Source: Parvibium lacunae (GTDB lineage: Bacteria; Pseudomonadota; Gammaproteobacteria; Burkholderiales; Burkholderiaceae_D). From it: a DNA stretch of 64,000 nt. Shown piece by piece: positions 2,816-10,431 of the stretch. The notes beneath the pieces were generated by a model. The model had not been told where the DNA came from. It made no database searches and was given only the letters and a program-made list of their open reading frames with translations. Location of the stretch: positions 186,001 through 250,000 of the forward strand of contig NZ_QPGB01000002.1 of NCBI RefSeq assembly GCF_003335215.1. Direction: 5' to 3'. Position numbers and translations under genes: made by a program. Positions within the stretch are counted from its first letter, which is position 1. Every line of letters begins with the position of its first letter.

Positions 2816-4288
2816 TTATTCTACTTGCATACGGGCAGGCAAGGCAGCCGCCACATCGCGAAACGACTGTAATGCCGCCTCTAGGTGCTCAATAATCTCT
2901 TGCTGTAACACATCGGGGGGTGGCAAGTCATCTAAGTTATCAAGGCTGTCATCCTTCAGCCAAAATAGGTCTAGGCTCGCCTTATCCCGCGCCATCAATT
3001 CTTCATACGAATAGCACTTAAAGCGTTCTGTTTCGTGGCGCTCATGGCGGTTTTCAGGGTGGTAGCAATTGATAAAGTCTTGCAAGTCAGCAAATTTAAG
3101 CGGACGCGTTTTCAGCGTGAAATGCTGGTTTGTTCGCAAATCATAAAACCACACACCTTTGGTATGCACCCGCCCGTCTTTTGGCGCGTTATCAAAAAAC
3201 ACCACGTTCGCTTTCACCCCTTGTGCATAGAAGATGCCGGTGGGTAAACGCAAAATCGTATGCACATCGCAAGTCTCCAGCAACTTGCGGCGAATTTTTT
3301 CCCCCGCTCCGCCTTCAAACAGCACGTTATCGGGCAACACCACCGCTGCCTTGCCTTCTATTTTCAGCATGTTCACAATATGCTGTAAAAAATTGAGCTG
3401 CTTGTTCGACGTGGTTTCCCAAAAATCTTGCCGCTCATAGGTGAGCGCTTCGCGGTCTTCTTCGCCTTCCTCATTGGTAATTGTCATACTGCTTTTTTTA
3501 CCAAACGGTGGATTCGCCAACACATAATCCACCTTCAGCTTAGGTTCTGCAATCAAGGCATCCGAACGCTCTACCGAGGGTTCGCCATCCAGCTCGCCAA
3601 TGTTATGCAAAAACAAATTCATTAAGCACATGCGCCGCGTATTCGGCACAATTTCATTGCCGTGAAAAGTCTGGTCGCGCAAAAATTCTTTCTGCCGTTT
3701 ATCCAGCTTTGCACCTGGGCGCGTGAGCCAGCTATAGGCCCCCAAAAAGAAGCCGCCCGTACCACAGGCCGGGTCCGCAATCGTTTTCAACGGCTCGGGC
3801 TGCACACAGGCCACCATGGCCTCAATCAGTGCGCGGGGCGTAAAGTACTGGCCCGCTCCACTCTTCGTATCTTCCGCGTTCTTTTGCAGCAAGCCTTCGT
3901 ACAAATCGCCTTTGGTATCCGCATCCAAGCTAATCCAGTTTTCCGCATCAATCAGTTGCACCAAGCGCGAGAGCTTGGCCGGGTCTTGAATTTTGTTTTG
4001 TGCCTTAAAAAAAATCGCCCCCAACATGCCCGACTCTTGGCCCAGCTTGTGCAACACCGCCAAGTAATGCGCCTCCAGTGGCTCGCCCACTTTGCTGCGC
4101 AAACTCGCCCAGTCATAGCCCTGCGGGATATGCGTATCACGGTTGTATGGCGCTTGCGCGTATTCGTGCGCCAGCTTCAAAAACAGCAAGTAAGTAAGCT
4201 GCTCCAGATAATCGCCATAACTCACGCCGTCATCGCGCAAGGTGTGGCAAAAGTTCCAGACTTTTTGAACAAGAGAAGAAGTATTCAT
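2816..4288 (-). CDS. hsdM: Type I restriction-modification methyltransferase subunit
   Basis: The 490-residue protein is the modification subunit. With HsdS it forms the N6-adenine methyltransferase that protects the host's sites. The HsdM N-terminal helical domain covers about residues 1-130. The SAM-binding motif DPACGTGGFF is near residue 170 and the catalytic NPPFGKKS motif near residue 260. The length is normal. The gene is the last of the minus-strand island and is separated from the DUF3037 gene by 293 bases, so it may have its own promoter. That would let the methyltransferase be made without the nuclease. The hsdR-first, hsdM-last order is less common than hsdM-hsdS-hsdR. Confidence 0.95.
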   Translation of the reverse strand: MNTSSLVQKVWNFCHTLRDDGVSYGDYLEQLTYLLFLKLAHEYAQAPYNRDTHIPQGYDWASLRSKVGEPLEAHYLAVLHKLGQESGMLGAIFFKAQNKIQDPAKLSRLVQLIDAENWISLDADTKGDLYEGLLQKNAEDTKSGAGQYFTPRALIEAMVACVQPEPLKTIADPACGTGGFFLGAYSWLTRPGAKLDKRQKEFLRDQTFHGNEIVPNTRRMCLMNLFLHNIGELDGEPSVERSDALIAEPKLKVDYVLANPPFGKKSSMTITNEEGEEDREALTYERQDFWETTSNKQLNFLQHIVNMLKIEGKAAVVLPDNVLFEGGAGEKIRRKLLETCDVHTILRLPTGIFYAQGVKANVVFFDNAPKDGRVHTKGVWFYDLRTNQHFTLKTRPLKFADLQDFINCYHPENRHERHETERFKCYSYEELMARDKASLDLFWLKDDSLDNLDDLPPPDVLQQEIIEHLEAALQSFRDVAAALPARMQVE

Positions 4289-4581
4289 GGGTAATCGTTA
4301 TCGAGTTAAGTATCCGTCAAGTAAAAATAATCTGCTAAGCCCTTGATTTTTATGCACTATCAACAACTCAAAGAAACCGCCAGTCAAATACCCGTCAAGT
4401 AAACCAAGTATCCGCATCTCCGCTCCTTTTACGTAGACGTGACTTGGAAGTAGCGGCGCATACCATGAGCTCAGGGCGCTGACACGCTAACGCATGAAGT
4501 ATGGCTTCAAATCCAAACCTCATATCAAGCGAAGAAGTACTCTTAGATTAGGAAAGGCAGCGAAATTAGCTGCGAATTGAA
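4289..4581. other. 293-base intergenic region upstream of hsdM
   Basis: I find no plausible gene here. It is the only sizeable gap in the restriction island and should hold the hsdM control region on the minus strand. Apart from the direct repeats listed separately I see no well-formed sigma-70 promoter. TTGACG elements occur inside the repeats, but no acceptable -10 lies at the right distance. Confidence 0.5.
4311..4403. repeat. Imperfect direct repeat pair upstream of hsdM
   Basis: TATCCGTCAAGTAAA at 4311-4325 recurs as TACCCGTCAAGTAAA at 4389-4403 (14 of 15 identical), and a partial copy, AAGTATCCGC, follows at about 4406-4414. The pair flanks the hsdM upstream region and could be binding sites for a regulator. 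That role is inference. Confidence 0.6.
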
Positions 4582-5418
4582 TTAAAACCCCTGACGTGCA
4601 AAGGTCAAAATACGCTCGCTCGCATGGTGCGGCAATACGCTTGCCTCTACTTCTTGCAAAATCTCGGTAACCTCTTGCGCTACTTGCTGATGCGGCAAAT
4701 CGGCCCCAGTCTGCAAAGTAAATAGCACCTCGCCGTTCAGCAATGCACGACGACGTAGCTCACGAATGCGTCCGGCCCACTGCACCCCATGATCGACTGC
4801 CTTAGTCAGTTTTTGATGCGTTAAGTGCAAAGGCTTAATAATGCGAATGCGCTGGCCCTGTTCTGCCACAAAAGGGAACTCATATTCAAACAACGCATCG
4901 CCCACCGCACGAGAGCGATAGCGCTCTGCCAACTTATTCTGTTGGAAAAGCAGCTTCAACTCACGTTCAAGCAGGACCTCCTGGTTTTCTTTCGTCGCGA
5001 AGCGATGTTCCACATATTGCGCATACAACTGTTTGACCGCTTCATTGGCATCCGCTGTCAACAGCGCCCGCACCGGTGAAAAACGAAACATGGTTTCCCG
5101 GCGGCGAATCAGCTCATCAAACAACCCCGACCGCATTGGCTCAGGCTTACCCTGGCCACGCAGGGTTGCCAATAAGCGGCTGACACGCTCCAAATCCTCA
5201 GTGACCAGTTTCAGGCAAGCGTTAAGAGGCGCTTTAGTATCCAAATCAAAAAAATCGGTTACCCGCTTCCAGTTTTTAAGCAACTGAAAATGCAAGCTGC
5301 CTTGCTCATGGTTAAACAGCACCACCCCAATGTTGGCAAACTCTCCCGTTTCCACATAGGGTAAAAATTGCAAGATCGCGTAGCGGCAGGCAAAAGGGCT
5401 GCTCACATCAAACTCCAA
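4582..5418 (-). CDS. DUF3037 family protein, partner of HipA-like kinase
   Basis: The 278-residue protein matches the DUF3037 family through its N-terminal CRYAILQFLPYVETGEFANIGVVLF segment (residues 11-35), which is the family hallmark. The rest is mostly helical and charged. The biochemical function is unknown. DUF3037 genes are commonly found next to a HipA-like kinase gene, as here: its start overlaps the end of that gene by 16 bases, indicating translational coupling. Its place between hsdS and hsdM suggests a link to the restriction system, but nothing in the sequence shows a direct contact. Confidence 0.85.
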   Translation of the reverse strand: MEFDVSSPFACRYAILQFLPYVETGEFANIGVVLFNHEQGSLHFQLLKNWKRVTDFFDLDTKAPLNACLKLVTEDLERVSRLLATLRGQGKPEPMRSGLFDELIRRRETMFRFSPVRALLTADANEAVKQLYAQYVEHRFATKENQEVLLERELKLLFQQNKLAERYRSRAVGDALFEYEFPFVAEQGQRIRIIKPLHLTHQKLTKAVDHGVQWAGRIRELRRRALLNGEVLFTLQTGADLPHQQVAQEVTEILQEVEASVLPHHASERILTFARQGF

Positions 5419-6146
5419 AAATCATCTTGATCAACACGTGCTAAATCAGTGTAGACCCGTTGCAGGTCAAATTCATAGGGATTTGTCATTTCAGCGTCCA
5501 AATAGTGCCACAGCGGCGGCACACTTGCCACTATTTGCGGCCAAGCGGTTAAGGCCTCTTGCAGACGCTGCGCCATCTCGGCCCGCACCAAAAAATCACT
5601 CGCCAGATTTTTTAACGCCGCCGCAAACACATGCGTCTCTAAAAAATGTTGTACCTCAAAATCGTCCGCAAAGGCCAAATTATGGTCAATCACCAGCAAA
5701 CTCGCTTTGTCACTTTCCCAAAACAAATTCGGGTTGCCCCCCTGCCGGCTCAAACTACGATCCATATTGCGCACCCACCAATCAAAGACCGCCACCGCTG
5801 CTTGTAAATCAGGCGGGATTTTTTCCGCAATGCTCGCATTCAGCTCCACCACCTCAGAACGTCGCGAGCCAAATACCAACCCCGGCCCCAAGTCACTTAA
5901 ATCATGCTCTCCCACACGCCCCAAGGCCAACAGCTCATCCGGCACCGCCAGCAAACAAAACGGTGCTATCGGCAACCCAACACGCTGGGCCAACTGCCCC
6001 GCCAGCCATTCACACCACAAACTACGTTTGCCCGCTCCCGCCCCTTTCACAAAATACACCGCCCCATCTGCCGCCCGACAAATAAAGGGCCGTGTCATCC
6101 CCTGCTCACTCCGCCCGAGAATTTCAACAATGGTTTGTTCAGTCAT
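5403..6146 (-). CDS. HipA-like Ser/Thr kinase (short HipA_2 type)
   Basis: The 247-residue protein resembles the short HipA-like kinase family, related to the persistence toxin HipA, which phosphorylates glutamyl-tRNA synthetase. A likely ATP-binding lysine lies in YFVKG near residue 34. The catalytic segment VRNMDRSLSRQGGNPNLFW (near residues 127-145) supplies the NxDR aspartate and the following asparagine. IDHN (near 154-157) replaces the metal-binding DFG. It lacks the separate N-terminal HipA subdomain, and no HipB-like antitoxin is adjacent. The start overlaps the hsdS stop as ATGA, and the DUF3037 gene overlaps its end. The substrate is unknown. Confidence 0.82.
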   Translation of the reverse strand: MTEQTIVEILGRSEQGMTRPFICRAADGAVYFVKGAGAGKRSLWCEWLAGQLAQRVGLPIAPFCLLAVPDELLALGRVGEHDLSDLGPGLVFGSRRSEVVELNASIAEKIPPDLQAAVAVFDWWVRNMDRSLSRQGGNPNLFWESDKASLLVIDHNLAFADDFEVQHFLETHVFAAALKNLASDFLVRAEMAQRLQEALTAWPQIVASVPPLWHYLDAEMTNPYEFDLQRVYTDLARVDQDDFWSLM

Positions 6147-7645
6147 ACCAGCTCCTTGGGCTGACGTTTACGCGGATTAGGGGTGGCAGCACGTTGCGCC
6201 CGCCCAGCGCAAATCCGTTCTAGCAACACACTGGCCGGTTCGTCGCTGGGGTCTTGCGGCACCAGTTGGCCGGCAAACGCCGCACGCAGAATATTTTGGC
6301 GTTGGGCGGTGGATTGTTTGAGGACAAGTTCTGTTTGCTGTTCTAGCTCTTTAATAGCGCCTAACCGCTCTTCTAATAAAGAAAGTATCACCCCTTGCTC
6401 AGAGACCGAAGCAAGAGGAATTGGAGTTTTTTTCAAGTCTTCACCTGAAATTCCGGTTTGGCCCGCCGTAGTTTTTACTCGCGACACTAAATGCTTGCGC
6501 GAACAACTGACGTTGCCGCAGACTTCCATCCAAGCCCCCAAACCCACTCCTAAAATAGGTTTCATACGAATAAGTTTATCTGGGTGCAGCGTGCGCTCAG
6601 GCACATTTTTAATCATGCCAAAAACACCCAACAAATCGACACTACCGTTGTACCGCGTTGCCAAGACATCACCGACTTCAACCCAATAGTCAGCAGCCTC
6701 ATTCTCATCAATCTCAATATGTTTGATGGCTTCAAAATTTACAGACATTGGTCGTACCGCATTAATTTTGAAGATGGGAAAGCCACGCTGCTCGGTATTG
6801 GGCGTTTTCGACAATCCATTTCGTACTGACTCTGACAATTGCTCCACACTCGCCCACACCCACCCCTCTGGCAGTTCCGGTAAATCGGTGGTGTCCGGTT
6901 GCACGGGTTCGGGGTATTTTTTTTGCCAGTCTTTGGGGGGCGTTTTGCCTTGTTCGGCAAATTTGGCGAGTTGCTTGGCTTCCCAGCGGGCGCGGCGTTC
7001 TTGCAGGATTCGTGCGAGCAATTGCGCGCCGCTTTCGGTAGCGGGGTGTTGCTTGCGCCATTCTGCGGTGAGTGCGCCTTCAACCGCTGCTTTGAGCAGC
7101 GATTGGCGGTATTGCACCAGCTTCTTTTGCGCGGCCTTGAGTTCGGCCACGCCAGCATCCAGGTCGGAGAGGAGTTCTTCGAGCTTGGCAACGATGCGGG
7201 TTTGTTCGGCAGCAGGAGCTACTGGACAAGAAATATCCCGAACAAACTGCCCACTTATTGCCGCAAATGTTGAACCTGTACCTTGCTCTGATAGCCAAGG
7301 CTCAATGCTCTTAAAAAAGTAGTATAGGTATGACTGATTAACGCCAGTCTCTCCATGGACACCAGCTAAACCACGGCCAATACAACTTTTTTCAGGCGCG
7401 ATATTTGTAGGTCCAACCGGAGCACGGATCGAAAGCAAAATGTCACCACGCTCAACAATCTTTGTTGGCTCCGAGCACCACTTTCGTATTTCAGGGAAAA
7501 CAGCTTGAAATTCTGCCTTACCCTGAAAAAATGGGAGTCCTTTCCCTTCGGCATTGTACGAACGTGAGTCGGGAGACTGCCCCATTTCGATCATCGCCAA
7601 ATTGGCTAGCGCCGTCTTGGTCCAGTTATTTGGCAATCCGCTCAC
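6143..7645 (-). CDS. hsdS: Type I restriction-modification specificity subunit
   Basis: The 500-residue HsdS chain recognises the bipartite DNA target. Two target-recognition domains are visible, one from about residues 5-150 (starting LPNNWTKTALANLAMIEMGQ) and one from about 255-430 (starting LPEGWVWASVEQL). Each is followed by a conserved helical spacer: QTRIVAKLEELLSDLDAGVAELKAA after the first and EERLGAIKELEQQTELVLKQ after the second. The C-terminus (LRAAFAGQLVPQDPSDEPASVLLERI) is characteristic. The start overlaps the hsdR stop by four bases and the stop overlaps the HipA-like gene by four bases. Confidence 0.95.
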   Translation of the reverse strand: MSGLPNNWTKTALANLAMIEMGQSPDSRSYNAEGKGLPFFQGKAEFQAVFPEIRKWCSEPTKIVERGDILLSIRAPVGPTNIAPEKSCIGRGLAGVHGETGVNQSYLYYFFKSIEPWLSEQGTGSTFAAISGQFVRDISCPVAPAAEQTRIVAKLEELLSDLDAGVAELKAAQKKLVQYRQSLLKAAVEGALTAEWRKQHPATESGAQLLARILQERRARWEAKQLAKFAEQGKTPPKDWQKKYPEPVQPDTTDLPELPEGWVWASVEQLSESVRNGLSKTPNTEQRGFPIFKINAVRPMSVNFEAIKHIEIDENEAADYWVEVGDVLATRYNGSVDLLGVFGMIKNVPERTLHPDKLIRMKPILGVGLGAWMEVCGNVSCSRKHLVSRVKTTAGQTGISGEDLKKTPIPLASVSEQGVILSLLEERLGAIKELEQQTELVLKQSTAQRQNILRAAFAGQLVPQDPSDEPASVLLERICAGRAQRAATPNPRKRQPKELV

Positions 7646-10431
7646 GCCACCAACTCCACATTCAGTTCATCCATGAGTCCATCCAGTTCTTGACCAAACA
7701 CGCCCCAGGCTTTTTGTAGCCCGCCTTTGTCGGCCAGTTCGGCATAATCAAAATCGTCCCGGCTGATGCTGCAACTGCTGGCGATGTGGTCTTTCATCAA
7801 GCGTAGCCAGTCCGTTTGTTCGGGGGTGAAGGCGCTACCGCGCTGGGCATTGTGGCGGAAGATCCAGGCTTGAAAGCGTTTATCCACTTCATCGGCAAAG
7901 GGTTTGAGTTCGCCTTGTGCACCCTCTAACCCCAAGGCAAAGCGCACGAGGCTGACCAGATCGGTCAGTTGGCGTTTGCGGTCTGCACCTTTTACCTGCG
8001 CCGCTTGCACCCGCGCATAGGCGCTCCACAGCCGTTCGGTGGTGAGCATGAGCGGCGGTTTGGCAAGGTGTTCGTGCAATTCTTCGATCATGTCATAGGT
8101 GAGTTGGCGGCGCTGGTAGGGTTGTTGGTAAAAGAAACTGAGCGCGGCAATTTCGTCTTTGTGCTGTTTGAGGTATTCGGTAAAGGTTTGAATCACGCTG
8201 TGGGCCTGGGTTTCGGCTTGCTGGCTGAAACCGGCGAAGGTGACTTGGTCGAGGTTGATGTGGTCGATGAGTTGATCGCGTTCGCGGCGGGCGGTGTCGA
8301 TCACCTCGCGCAATTCTGGTTTATCAAAGGGCGCGCAGGCGGCGGCGACACGGGTGGCGCGGGCGGCTTCAATTTCTTCGGGTAGCAGCGTTTCTTCGCT
8401 GCGTGTGATGCCTTGGGCGTGCGCGGTGTTGAGCGCGGTTTGCACAATGGCATCGGGGTTGAGCGCGACAATCAGGCTTTTACCGAGCTCGGCAATCGGG
8501 ATACCGCCACTGGCTTTTTCAATGCGGGCTTGGGCTTTGTCATCGAGTTGTTTGGCGAGGCGCACGAGGCGGTTGGCGAGCGAGAGCACGGTGTCGTCAT
8601 CCCGATGCCCGAGGGCCACGCCTTGCAGCAGGTCTTTAAGGGCAACGCCGGGTTTCTTTTCGAGTGGGCGGCTTTCGGTTTTGAGGCTTTTTTCTACGCC
8701 GACGGCATCAATCAACACAAAGCGGGTTTTAGCCCCCTCGGCACTATTACTCACACGCTTGAGGCTTTCGCCATCGAGGCTACGCACGCCCCGGCCTTTC
8801 ATTTGTTCGTAGTAGCCTTTGCTGCGCACATCGCGCATGAAGAGCAGGACTTCGAGGGGTTTTACATCCGTCCCCGTGGCGATCATATCCACCGTGACGG
8901 CAATGCGTGGGTAGTAGTCGTTGCGGAAGCTGCTGAGGATGCTGTCGGCATCTTCTTCGGCGCGGTAGGTGACTTTTTTGCAGAAGGCATTCCCCTGCCC
9001 ATAGACCTCGCGCACCATGTTGATGATGTCATCGGCATGGCTATCGGTTTTGGCGAAGATGAGGGTTTTAGGCGTTTCTTTGCGGGCGGGGAAAATTTGC
9101 GTTTCCACGGCGTTTTTCATGGCCTGAATGACTTGGCGAATCTGGCTGGGATTGACCACTGAACGGTCGAGTTCTTTACCGGTATAAATGGTGTCTGCTT
9201 CGGTTTCGGCCCAGCGCTTTTTACGGGTGGCGCGGTCGCGGTGGTCTACCCATTCTTTGGCTTTGAGCTCGCTGCCTTGTTGGGTAATGGTGGTTTCGAT
9301 CTCAAACACGTCGTAGCCGACGTTAACGCCATCGGCCACGGATTGTTCGTAGGTGTACTCGGCGACGATGTTTTCGTTAAAGAAGCCAAAGGTACGGTTA
9401 TCGGGCGTGGCGGTAAGGCCAATGAGGAAGGCATCGAAATAGTCGAGCACTTGCTTCCACAGGTTGTAAATACTGCGGTGGCATTCATCAATAATAATTA
9501 AATCAAAGGTATCTACCGCCACGGCGGGGTTGTAGCGCACGTGTTTGGCTTGCTTGGTGGTTTGCTCGATTTCGTTGAGCGAAATGTCTTCGGCGGAATC
9601 GTCAATTTGTTCGCCACTGAGAATGGAGTACATGCGCTGAATGGTGCTGATGCAGACTTGCGCATGCGGATCAATATGTGGGCTGGCGAGCCGCTGAACG
9701 TTGTACAGCTCGGTAAATTTGCGGCCATCATCCGGCGGGGTGTAGGCCATGAATTCTTGATGCGCTTGCTTGCCGAGGTTGCGCGTATCCACCAAAAACA
9801 AAATGCGCTTAGCGCCGCCGAATTTGAGCAAACGATAAACCGAGGTAATGGCAGTAAAGGTTTTACCCGCGCCGGTGGCCATGTGAATAAGCGCACGGGG
9901 TTTGTTGAGCGCGAGCGATTGTTCTAAACCGGTGACGGCGCTGATCTGGCAATCACGCAGATTACGTTCGGGCAATGCGGGCATGGCTTCGGCCAAACGC
10001 CGCCGCAGGGTGTTAGGTTGAGCCAGCCACTCCGCTAAGGTTTGCGGTGGAAAGAAATGAAAAATTTCACGCGAACGGGGCGCAGGATCGGCGTTATCGG
10101 TAAAGCGAATAATTTGCCCGGTGGCTTCAAACAAGAAACGCAAAGGAGTTTGCTCGGTGCGCCATTTAAGGGTGGCGCTGGCGTAGCGTTCGGTTTGTTG
10201 CTCTACGGCGGTGATGTTTTCAGCGGCGCTATCGCGTTTGGCTTCAATCACGCCCACGGCCTGCCGGTTTACAAACATCACATAATCCGCTGGGCCGGTA
10301 TCGGTGGGGTATTCACGCACAATCACGCCAACACCGGCACCGAGATTAAGTGCGGCCATGTCTTGGATGATCCAGCCCGCTTGCTGGAGCTTTTGGTCGA
10401 TACGTTCGCGGGCTTTGATTTCTGGGGTCAT
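7642..10431 (-). CDS. hsdR: Type I restriction endonuclease subunit R
   Basis: The 929-residue motor and nuclease subunit translocates DNA and cuts unmodified DNA away from the recognition site. The nuclease motif is at the N-terminus: PADYVMF followed by GVIEAKRD near residues 47-66. Helicase motif I is MATGAGKTFTAI near residue 180 and motif II is DECHRS near residue 314. Later helicase motifs include VDMIATGTDVKPLEVLLFMR and QMKGRGVR. A C-terminal region of the EcoEI type follows. It is the first gene of the island transcript, and 156 bases separate it from the helicase gene upstream. Confidence 0.95.
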   Translation of the reverse strand: MTPEIKARERIDQKLQQAGWIIQDMAALNLGAGVGVIVREYPTDTGPADYVMFVNRQAVGVIEAKRDSAAENITAVEQQTERYASATLKWRTEQTPLRFLFEATGQIIRFTDNADPAPRSREIFHFFPPQTLAEWLAQPNTLRRRLAEAMPALPERNLRDCQISAVTGLEQSLALNKPRALIHMATGAGKTFTAITSVYRLLKFGGAKRILFLVDTRNLGKQAHQEFMAYTPPDDGRKFTELYNVQRLASPHIDPHAQVCISTIQRMYSILSGEQIDDSAEDISLNEIEQTTKQAKHVRYNPAVAVDTFDLIIIDECHRSIYNLWKQVLDYFDAFLIGLTATPDNRTFGFFNENIVAEYTYEQSVADGVNVGYDVFEIETTITQQGSELKAKEWVDHRDRATRKKRWAETEADTIYTGKELDRSVVNPSQIRQVIQAMKNAVETQIFPARKETPKTLIFAKTDSHADDIINMVREVYGQGNAFCKKVTYRAEEDADSILSSFRNDYYPRIAVTVDMIATGTDVKPLEVLLFMRDVRSKGYYEQMKGRGVRSLDGESLKRVSNSAEGAKTRFVLIDAVGVEKSLKTESRPLEKKPGVALKDLLQGVALGHRDDDTVLSLANRLVRLAKQLDDKAQARIEKASGGIPIAELGKSLIVALNPDAIVQTALNTAHAQGITRSEETLLPEEIEAARATRVAAACAPFDKPELREVIDTARRERDQLIDHINLDQVTFAGFSQQAETQAHSVIQTFTEYLKQHKDEIAALSFFYQQPYQRRQLTYDMIEELHEHLAKPPLMLTTERLWSAYARVQAAQVKGADRKRQLTDLVSLVRFALGLEGAQGELKPFADEVDKRFQAWIFRHNAQRGSAFTPEQTDWLRLMKDHIASSCSISRDDFDYAELADKGGLQKAWGVFGQELDGLMDELNVELVA

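Follow-up and report, generated by a model that had tools for sequence, protein, structure and literature searches.

We identified, in a type I restriction-modification operon of Parvibium lacunae, a HipA-type kinase gene and a DUF3037 gene lodged between hsdS and hsdM. Related operons carry other defence modules at the same position, which therefore appears to be a plug-in site and not a one-off oddity. Our preferred reading, to which we assign a probability of about 60%, is a type I R-S-[slot]-M operon whose slot holds an interchangeable, self-contained backup module (HipAD/PDC-M66) that is co-expressed with restriction. According to this reading, the slot would contain a kinase toxin and its DUF3037 antitoxin, and restriction would be the first layer against infection. 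DUF3037 would restrain the kinase, and an infection that escapes restriction would free or activate it; the freed kinase would phosphorylate a host target, which, as for HipA and HipT, probably belongs to translation, and growth would halt, resulting in abortive infection. We infer the trigger, the target, and an action that runs alongside the restriction enzyme and not via it.

Organization of the restriction operon

Coordinates are positions in the window, the whole stretch of 64,000 nt that was analysed (Parvibium lacunae NZ_QPGB01000002.1, positions 186,001 to 250,000). On the ORF map, the gene order 5' to 3' in transcription is hsdR, hsdS, HipA_2 kinase, DUF3037, and hsdM, all on the minus strand:

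7642 to 10431, minus strand: hsdR, type I restriction subunit, 929 aa (Pfam EcoEI_R_C, ResIII, and HSDR_N)
6143 to 7645, minus strand: hsdS, specificity subunit, 500 aa, GTG start (Pfam Methylase_S, E 5e-15)
5403 to 6146, minus strand: HipA_2 (PF20613) kinase, 247 aa, ATG start (Pfam E 9e-90)
4582 to 5418 (TTG at 5418), minus strand: DUF3037 protein (PF11236; PADLOC PDC-M66B), probable antitoxin (Pfam E 8e-24)
4382 to 4403, no strand: 22-nt direct repeat copy 2, putative operator upstream of hsdM
4304 to 4325, no strand: 22-nt direct repeat copy 1, putative operator upstream of hsdM
2816 to 4288, minus strand: hsdM, N6-adenine methyltransferase subunit, 490 aa (Pfam N6_Mtase, E 8e-69, and HsdM_N)

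All five genes lie where the original prediction had placed them, with the kinase and DUF3037 genes between hsdS and hsdM, and have Pfam support. The type I gene set is complete (HsdR, HsdS, and HsdM with the expected domains), the NCBIfam matches of the Hsd proteins falling under the curated cut-offs. Four-base overlaps join the hsdR stop to the hsdS start (GTGA) and, as predicted, the hsdS stop to the kinase start (ATGA). With its start on the stop codon of hsdS, the cargo is probably translated together with hsdR and hsdS. The DUF3037 gene lies directly downstream of the kinase gene, and its start overlaps the kinase end. This overlap had also been predicted, with a length of 16 bases, which requires that translation begin with TTG at 5418. 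Judging from the sequence, GTG at 5406 is the more likely start: the overlap is then 4 bases (GTGA), a GGAG lies six bases before this codon, and the start agrees with the N-termini of the relatives in an alignment, where M is followed by three residues in the consensus (four here) and then A-C.

The hsdM gene follows 293 bases past the DUF3037 gene. The four upstream genes had been proposed to form one coupled unit with hsdM apart; the overlaps agree with this, but the separation of hsdM is a trait of the whole R-S-M family, seen in 22 of 22 tabulated complete loci (window included), 16 of which have other cargo. We rejected the idea that insertion of this pair split off hsdM, as loci with other cargo also have hsdM apart and the locus L322 gives the uncut order. 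Among 35 loci scanned, two copies of the repeat upstream of hsdM are present only in the window and in L244, with one weak copy in L317. The repeat pattern was found in five genomes, three of them without a restriction gene in the short flanks examined, and its viral match is a simple repeat. Sigma-70 scans round hsdM and hsdR yielded no promoter.

The kinase and its DUF3037 partner

By sequence, the pair is PADLOC PDC-M66, in print as DS-6/HipAD, the kinase matching model PDC-M66A at 41 bits and the DUF3037 protein matching PDC-M66B at 86 bits. The original prediction knew of no characterised system of this architecture; the pair itself, however, had already been published as a defence system. 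Relatives of the pair provide phage defence, with dependence on the kinase and toxicity upon deletion of DUF3037 (PMC12548924, PMC13092281); in the tested relative, DUF3037 is the antitoxin and defence persists without the retron partner. DS-6/HipAD/PDC-M66 and the window share the HipA-like kinase and the DUF3037 protein, whereas the DS-6B partner has DUF1829 and the window protein has DUF3037 as its sole Pfam domain, with no DUF1829 match at E <= 0.01. DUF1829, reported for DS-6B, may therefore not define the HipAD/PDC-M66 family. The published settings found are a retron operon (DS-6) and a paper on E. coli prophages (HipAD), and the available text of these sources mentions no hsd operon.

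The kinase is predicted to have a kinase fold (VIA Z about 10-12 versus HipA and HipT). Residues K33, D128, N137, N139, D153, and N155 are invariant in an alignment of 49 sequences (window included), and we take them to be the ATP-binding and catalytic positions, with roles as in HipA-type kinases.

Residues 142-277 of the DUF3037 model have a restriction-endonuclease-like predicted fold, from which the acidic residues are apparently missing, an absence that depends on our own placement of the catalytic residues. The closest VIA matches were Cdn1, BstEII, and PspGI (Z 9.4-9.8), mostly over residues 142-277, and the comparison hardly reached the N-terminal half. Because the next matches, at Z 7-8, are unrelated alpha/beta folds, we hold only with moderate confidence that the C-terminal half is restriction-endonuclease-like and probably inactive. 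A Foldseek search with the model gave nothing below E 0.001, and PDB sequence searches gave no useful match. We disfavour the C-terminal half being a restriction-specific adaptor: it is conserved in an alignment of 47 sequences in which linked and unlinked pairs are mixed and pooled.

Cargo exchange in the slot and linkage of the pair

The relatives of the window HsdR constitute the R-S-[slot]-M family. Same-strand ORFs lie between hsdS and hsdM in 23 of 24 complete loci, all recruited through HsdR alone: (i) 20 of 31 HsdR matches were used in a first batch, 16 being complete and L254, L256, L258, and L263 incomplete; and (ii) 8 of 13 new matches were used in a second batch, all 8 complete. 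The hsdM of L261 is two overlapping ORFs. Cargo here means same-strand ORFs as predicted, that is, putative genes with mechanically set starts; 26 of 35 slot ORFs in the first batch (at least 70 aa) and 10 of 20 in the second (at least 60 aa) were scanned with Pfam. The cargo families include Fic, DarTG, AbiE, CBASS, Septu-like, Schlafen, TIR, HEPN, and DUF3800, as well as patatin plus cyclase, GmrSD, and DUF4917, and the DarT-macro and AbiEi/AbiEii cargos are toxin-antitoxin modules. About eighteen cargo kinds other than HipA_2-DUF3037 were found; HipA_2 itself was in none of the 24 HsdR-recruited loci, which makes the pair a minor tenant of the slot. The slot is empty in L322, where hsdS is joined to hsdM by ATGA. 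Kinase-free cargo is present at L244, L245, and L317, whose HsdR proteins are 74-80% identical, and the window HsdM is 82% identical to that of L244 and 78% identical to that of L245, yet the cargo differs in both.

This exchange bears on the suggestion, made in the original prediction, that the pair regulates the restriction enzyme by phosphorylation, which would mean direct control of restriction or modification with HsdR, HsdS, or HsdM as a substrate of the kinase. The overlap with hsdS in the window would suit such a role, as would the gene labelled restriction-modification that immediately precedes the pair in 25 of the 75 relatives and is hsdS in 17. Against it stand the kinase-free cargos beside closely similar HsdR proteins, similar HipA_2 pairs beside unrelated HsdM proteins (L053 and L059: HipA_2 70%, HsdM 28% identical), and the type III-like and Mrr genes that also precede the pair. 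With about eighteen other cargos in the slot, and with the pair in 38 viral contigs whose analysed stretches lack same-strand hsdS or hsdM, we consider direct regulation highly improbable and reject it as the main role.

The pair has a same-strand hsdS or hsdM at 27 of 75 genome loci from a profile search and at 4 of the 15 loci that passed the cut-off in unselected genome surveys, against 1 of 20 in each of two control families; both control cases come from the genome of the window itself, in a single island. The 27/75 contrast is indicative only because the collections, strand counting, and locus lengths differ: for each control family, 20 loci out of 30 listed were taken from a class survey, picked for sequence length and counted on either strand, and the 75 loci are a different collection, many short, with three (L056, L068, and L073) also serving as query seeds. 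The unselected comparison is weaker (4/15 versus 2/40, p 0.04). Linkage is nonetheless recurrent, and the enrichment at hsd loci on which the original prediction hung was thus found. The hsd labels come from profiles made from window relatives, with score thresholds of 80 bits (linkage) and 100 bits (slot). Seven of the 25 upstream genes carry an HsdR label only, and the HsdR profile also picks up other helicases, as in the HipA_C controls L292 and L297 (HsdR-only match above 80 bits). One linked locus, L107, has its kinase and hsdM genes each split into several ORFs. Same-strand hsdS or hsdM was found in 0 of 38 viral stretches with the pair, and an opposite-strand hsdM-profile match in 9 of 38. 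The plasmid matches comprised 20 records, at least two of them of chromosome size, and a single-protein viral scan found no relatives.

In a kinase tree, with same-strand hsdS or hsdM counted as linked, linkage changed at least 13 times, five changes being forced by well-supported branches; these counts hold for the hand-picked sample of 45 of the 75 genome loci and 3 of the 38 viral loci, those dropped being mostly unlinked, short, or distant. Pairwise distances at 24 loci (HsdM above 300 bits; L064 and L079 with opposite-strand hsd genes) correlated at r 0.85 between HipA_2 and DUF3037 and at r 0.27 between HipA_2 and HsdM, the latter being a slight residual correlation matched in 2 of 2000 permutations. 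The nearest HipA_2 to that of the window is in L041 (56% identical), where HsdM is 82% identical, so that there is some co-inheritance.

An equally good explanation of the 23/24 occupancy and of the hsdS overlap would be that the cargo depends functionally on the restriction enzyme. The kinase module might be kept silent by the restriction complex, or by the activity of the complex, as PrrC is in EcoprrI, until a phage anti-restriction protein, or failure of the enzyme, sets it free; the slot would then be a general site that couples sensor to effector. We regard this guard arrangement, also raised in the original prediction, as possible though unlikely. It is favoured by the precedent of PrrC (PMC3874165) and by DarTG2, which an E. 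coli type I operon carries between its hsdS and hsdR genes (PMC12255303). Also in its favour, toxin, abortive-infection, or nuclease families account for many of the named cargos, and in 6 of 16 complete first-batch loci the first cargo ORF shares exactly 4 bases with hsdS (longest-ORF starts). On the other hand, the tested relative has its own antitoxin and defends without its retron partner, the pair exists in 38 viral contigs with no same-strand hsdS or hsdM in the stretch analysed and also behind type III-like and Mrr genes, and one interface could hardly silence about eighteen further kinds of cargo. Quite unlikely, in our view, is the broader version in which the restriction enzyme is a sensor and the slot a plug-in effector site, so that inhibition or overloading of the type I complex would arm any cargo on the hsdS stop; if true, what holds for PrrC would hold for nearly twenty effector families.

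Decidedly unlikely is that the pair contributes little or nothing to phage defence and is kept because it punishes operon loss. The DarT-macro and AbiEi/AbiEii cargos would fit such stabilisation, but we know of no addictive action for the TIR, patatin plus cyclase, Septu-like, and GmrSD cargos. A relative of the pair does behave as a toxin-antitoxin system, but relatives also give phage protection (PMC12548924, PMC13092281). A self-contained backup module remains our preferred reading.

Comparison with known embedded systems

HipBA and HipBST resemble the window kinase in kinase fold and probable toxin role but have a HipB-type antitoxin and HipA_C, and their HipA chains are about 400-440 aa, versus 247 aa here. 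The window kinase has no HipA_C (PF07804) match in Pfam at E <= 0.01, and its neighbours are hsdS and DUF3037, with no HipB-type antitoxin gene beside it. In Campylobacter jejuni, the rlo and mlo genes are extra genes between the hsd genes of type I loci. EcoprrI (PMC3874165) also has a latent toxin gene in a type I operon, but there the restriction complex sequesters an anticodon nuclease, PrrC, whereas the window has a kinase with its own putative antitoxin; Pfam yields only HipA_2 and DUF3037 in the window cargo, and no PrrC-family anticodon nuclease. The EPEC RRDM island (PMC12255303) likewise has a toxin-antitoxin module, DarTG2, inside a type I operon. There, DarTG2 lies between hsdS and hsdR and the RptR repressor gene comes first, whereas the window has the order R-S-cargo-M and a different toxin. 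The next same-strand gene before hsdR is a 649-aa DinG-like ORF 156 bases away, a gap too short for an RptR-like regulator gene, and the small regulator gene directly upstream that is a trait of the RptR-controlled island is absent.

PMC12988326 attributes the PDC names to a 2024 "guilt-by-embedding" preprint (10.1101/2024.01.29.577857) on defence genes within other defence operons, and PMC13092281 cites it (among references 10 and 33-35) as one of the sources for the validation of a PIN domain and a HipA kinase. A restriction operon with a HipA system may already be among the examples in that preprint. Embedded defence genes have so far been known singly (PrrC, DarTG2) or as candidate lists (PDC). 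Here, one restriction family has a fixed insertion point, 23/24 occupancy, an empty site, and cargo exchange at 74-80% HsdR identity. These features make an old question directly testable, namely, whether the enzyme senses its own failure or merely shares a transcript with its cargo, and the slot, in which DUF3800 and DUF4917 were found, is a practical hunting ground for defence genes.

The kinase-DUF3037 pair and its operon

As originally predicted, a HipA_2 (PF20613) kinase gene and a DUF3037 (PF11236) gene, here called the pair, lie between hsdS and hsdM of a type I restriction operon transcribed in the order hsdR-hsdS-kinase-DUF3037-hsdM.

Genes of the operon in order of transcription (window positions)
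7642-10431, minus strand: hsdR, first
6143-7645, minus strand: hsdS, second
5403-6146, minus strand: HipA_2 kinase gene (247 aa), third
4582-5418, minus strand: DUF3037 gene, fourth
2816-4288, minus strand: hsdM, last, 293 bases past the DUF3037 gene

The names of all five genes agree with Pfam and PADLOC matches; NCBIfam names the three hsd genes alike, with matches below its cut-offs, and gave no match for the HipA_2 kinase or the DUF3037 protein. The hsdR stop overlaps the hsdS start (GTGA), and the ATGA overlap proposed to join hsdS to the kinase gene was confirmed, with AAGGAG upstream. The predicted 16-base overlap between the kinase and DUF3037 genes is possible with a TTG start at 5418, but a GTG start at 5406, which gives a GTGA overlap and has GGAG six bases upstream, fits the relatives better. 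One HipA_2 gene was found in the 2.63 Mb assembly.

Residues K33, D128, N137, N139, D153, and N155 of the kinase are invariant in a 49-sequence alignment; we take their roles to match those in kinases of the HipA type. Structure prediction (mean pLDDT, 95) gave the kinase a protein-kinase fold whose nearest matches were CtkA (VIA Z, 13.7), PI4KII, and HipA/HipT (Z, about 10 to 12). The predicted DUF3037 structure (pLDDT, 93) has in its C-terminal half a restriction-endonuclease-like arrangement (VIA Z, 9.4 to 9.8 to Cdn1, BstEII, and PspGI), in which no conserved acidic residues were found at the usual catalytic places by our own placement. We propose, as a claim of moderate strength, that this half is a possible relic binding DNA or protein; in the antitoxin, it might contact DNA or the partner.

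The PADLOC models for the two proteins are PDC-M66A and PDC-M66B, and the pair is an already known kind of system (PDC-M66, DS-6/HipAD). According to PMC12548924, a HipA/DUF3037 pair adjoining a retron protects against phage Bas51, the retron parts being dispensable; deletion of the kinase abolishes defence, and deletion of DUF3037 is toxic. PMC13092281 gives the pair as DS-6, newly named HipAD, whose catalytic mutant provides no defence.

Linkage of the pair to hsd genes

A profile built from six kinases recovered 75 loci among reference genomes, and hsd genes in flanks of up to 10 kb were labelled with profiles built in this analysis. The linkage of such pairs to hsd genes was borne out: hsdS or hsdM occurred on the same strand in 27/75 loci within these flanks, and in 4 of 15 over-cut-off loci from genome surveys unselected for neighbours (own genome left out). 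Among controls, counted on either strand, hsdS or hsdM accompanied 1/20 classical HipA_C genes and 1/20 AbiEii genes, both in one island of the same genome as the window. Fisher p values against the 2/40 controls (2e-4 for 27/75 and 0.04 for 4/15) are indicative because the compared sets were sampled differently. The region holding these control loci (L302 and L274; contig C1, 37.7 to 71.7 kb) is a defence island on another contig, with a second type I system near the HipA_C and AbiEii genes.

An RM-labelled gene lay directly upstream (within 350 bases) at 25/75 loci: hsdS in 17, HsdR-profile genes in 7, and hsdM in 1 (L053, with HsdM fused to HsdS domains). At two of the seven (L057 and L075), an N6_N4_Mtase gene precedes, and the operons look like type III mod-res, with type III-like mod and helicase genes ahead of the pair. 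The gene orders were R-M-S-pair, M-S-R-pair, and R-S-pair-M, the last in the window and at L041, L044, L062, L067, and L070. Elsewhere, the pair is preceded by an Mrr-type nuclease gene beside a topoisomerase gene (L080) or by a TIR protein gene (L110).

The kinase is also present in twenty plasmid records. Same-strand hsdS or hsdM was found in 0/38 viral contigs with the pair (stretches examined), and 9/38 had an hsdM-profile match on the opposite strand. In many of these contigs (L116-L153), a same-strand ORF of about 220 to 250 aa, repressor size, precedes the pair.

A cargo slot at the hsdS/hsdM junction

With the HsdR of the window as query, matches were obtained in 32/369 genomes of the class and 16/398 genomes of the phylum, each count including the genome of the window. 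Among 28 matched loci taken for examination, 24 had complete R, S, and M genes, all in the order R-S-M, and 23 of the 24 had the S-M junction filled by same-strand ORFs (cargo); at L322 it is empty, and ATGA joins hsdS to hsdM. The first batch contained 16 complete loci: the R-S gap was within 40 bases in 13 and was open as well in the other three (608 to 2042 bases), and the first cargo ORF, often on the hsdS stop, overlapped it by exactly 4 bases in 6. The mostly tight R-S junction, the filled S-M junction, and the overlap at L322 thus identify the hsdS/hsdM junction as the slot. That hsdM stands apart, as predicted, is correct for the window but is therefore a trait of the R-S-M family. No HipA_2 gene was found in the 24 complete loci.

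Cargos named from a scan of part of the slot ORFs
DUF3800: L244, L318
Fic: L246, L248
Schlafen AlbA_2: L250, L257, L317
Septu-like PtuA and partner: L245
Bro-N: L247
GmrSD: L249
DarT-macro: L251
PDC-M28: L252
Abi_2: L253
NucS/DUF5655: L255
Patatin and CBASS cyclase: L259
GmrSD with AbiEi/AbiEii: L260
AbiEii-like: L261
Dazbog-like: L262
DUF4917: L319
TIR: L320
HEPN: L321
Mrr-like (weak): L323
Reverse transcriptase with SLATT: L324

The main slot ORFs of L318 (DUF3800) and L319 (DUF4917) encode function-unassigned proteins and are candidate defence genes.

Sequence comparison indicates that the hsd operon (the chassis) stays while cargo moves between R-S-M operons. Identity between the HsdM of the window and those of L244, L245, and L041, which carry DUF3800, Septu-like, and HipA_2-DUF3037 cargos, amounts to 82%, 78%, and 82%, respectively, and L317, with a Schlafen AlbA_2 cargo, has an HsdR 80% identical to that of the window. 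Over 24 loci, HipA_2 distances followed those of DUF3037 (r = 0.85; 0/2000 permutations as high) and, weakly, those of HsdM (r = 0.27; 2/2000). L053 and L059 share 70% identity in HipA_2 and 28% in HsdM, whereas L059 and L099 share 35% and 62%. The 49-kinase tree requires at least 13 changes of hsd linkage (bootstraps, 11 to 14; 5 forced by well-supported branches); shuffled linkage gave a mean of 16.6, with 25/500 shuffles as low as observed, so linkage is only weakly clustered on the tree. Two R-M-S-pair units, L049 and L058, from bins named Sedimenticola and Saprospiraceae, are 92% identical in HsdM and 74% in HipA_2, which reflects either cross-phylum transfer or a binning error.

A repeat lies upstream of hsdM.

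Repeat copies
Window 4304-4325 and 4382-4403: two direct copies of a 22-nt repeat, at a distance of 78 bases, just upstream of hsdM
L244 9363-9378 and 9462-9477: 16-base core, twice upstream of hsdM; cargo differs from that of the window
L325 7768-7783 and 7915-7930: 16-base core with one base relaxed, two copies upstream of a type III-like mod gene that follows Schlafen genes

The repeat was absent from most other R-S-M loci scanned and could be an operator giving the methyltransferase separate control.

Mode of action and known systems

The best-supported reading is that the pair is a self-sufficient abortive module in the slot, a second layer beside restriction: it would be co-translated with the restriction genes and would act on phages escaping cutting, with an abortive response. 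The original prediction had the pair either guarding the restriction enzyme or regulating it by phosphorylation. Control of the pair by the restriction complex is possible by analogy with PrrC (PMC3874165), and the near-constant occupation of the slot (23/24) and the overlap of the kinase gene with hsdS favour it; it is disfavoured in that DUF3037 is probably the pair's own antitoxin, copies of the pair occur away from hsd genes, and cargo kinds and RM partners are varied. Direct control of restriction by kinase phosphorylation ranks as the least likely of the readings.

Toxins inside type I operons are already known: PMC3874165 places the toxin PrrC in such an operon, and PMC12255303 places DarTG2 between hsdS and hsdR. 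The original prediction knew of no characterised system of this architecture; the pair alone has been published (PMC12548924 and PMC13092281), but in the literature searched, in part as excerpts, we found no description of HipA_2-DUF3037 in an hsd operon or of an hsdS/hsdM cargo slot. PMC12988326 ascribes the PDC names to a preprint of 2024 whose subject is defences nested within other defence systems, and PMC13092281 cites that preprint, together with other papers, for a PIN domain and a HipA kinase that have been validated; a similar case may therefore already be listed there. The DarTG2 island holds its cargo between hsdS and hsdR, whereas the cargo of the window lies between hsdS and hsdM, and the HipA/DUF3037 pair of PMC12548924 adjoins a retron, whereas that of the window lies inside a type I hsd operon.
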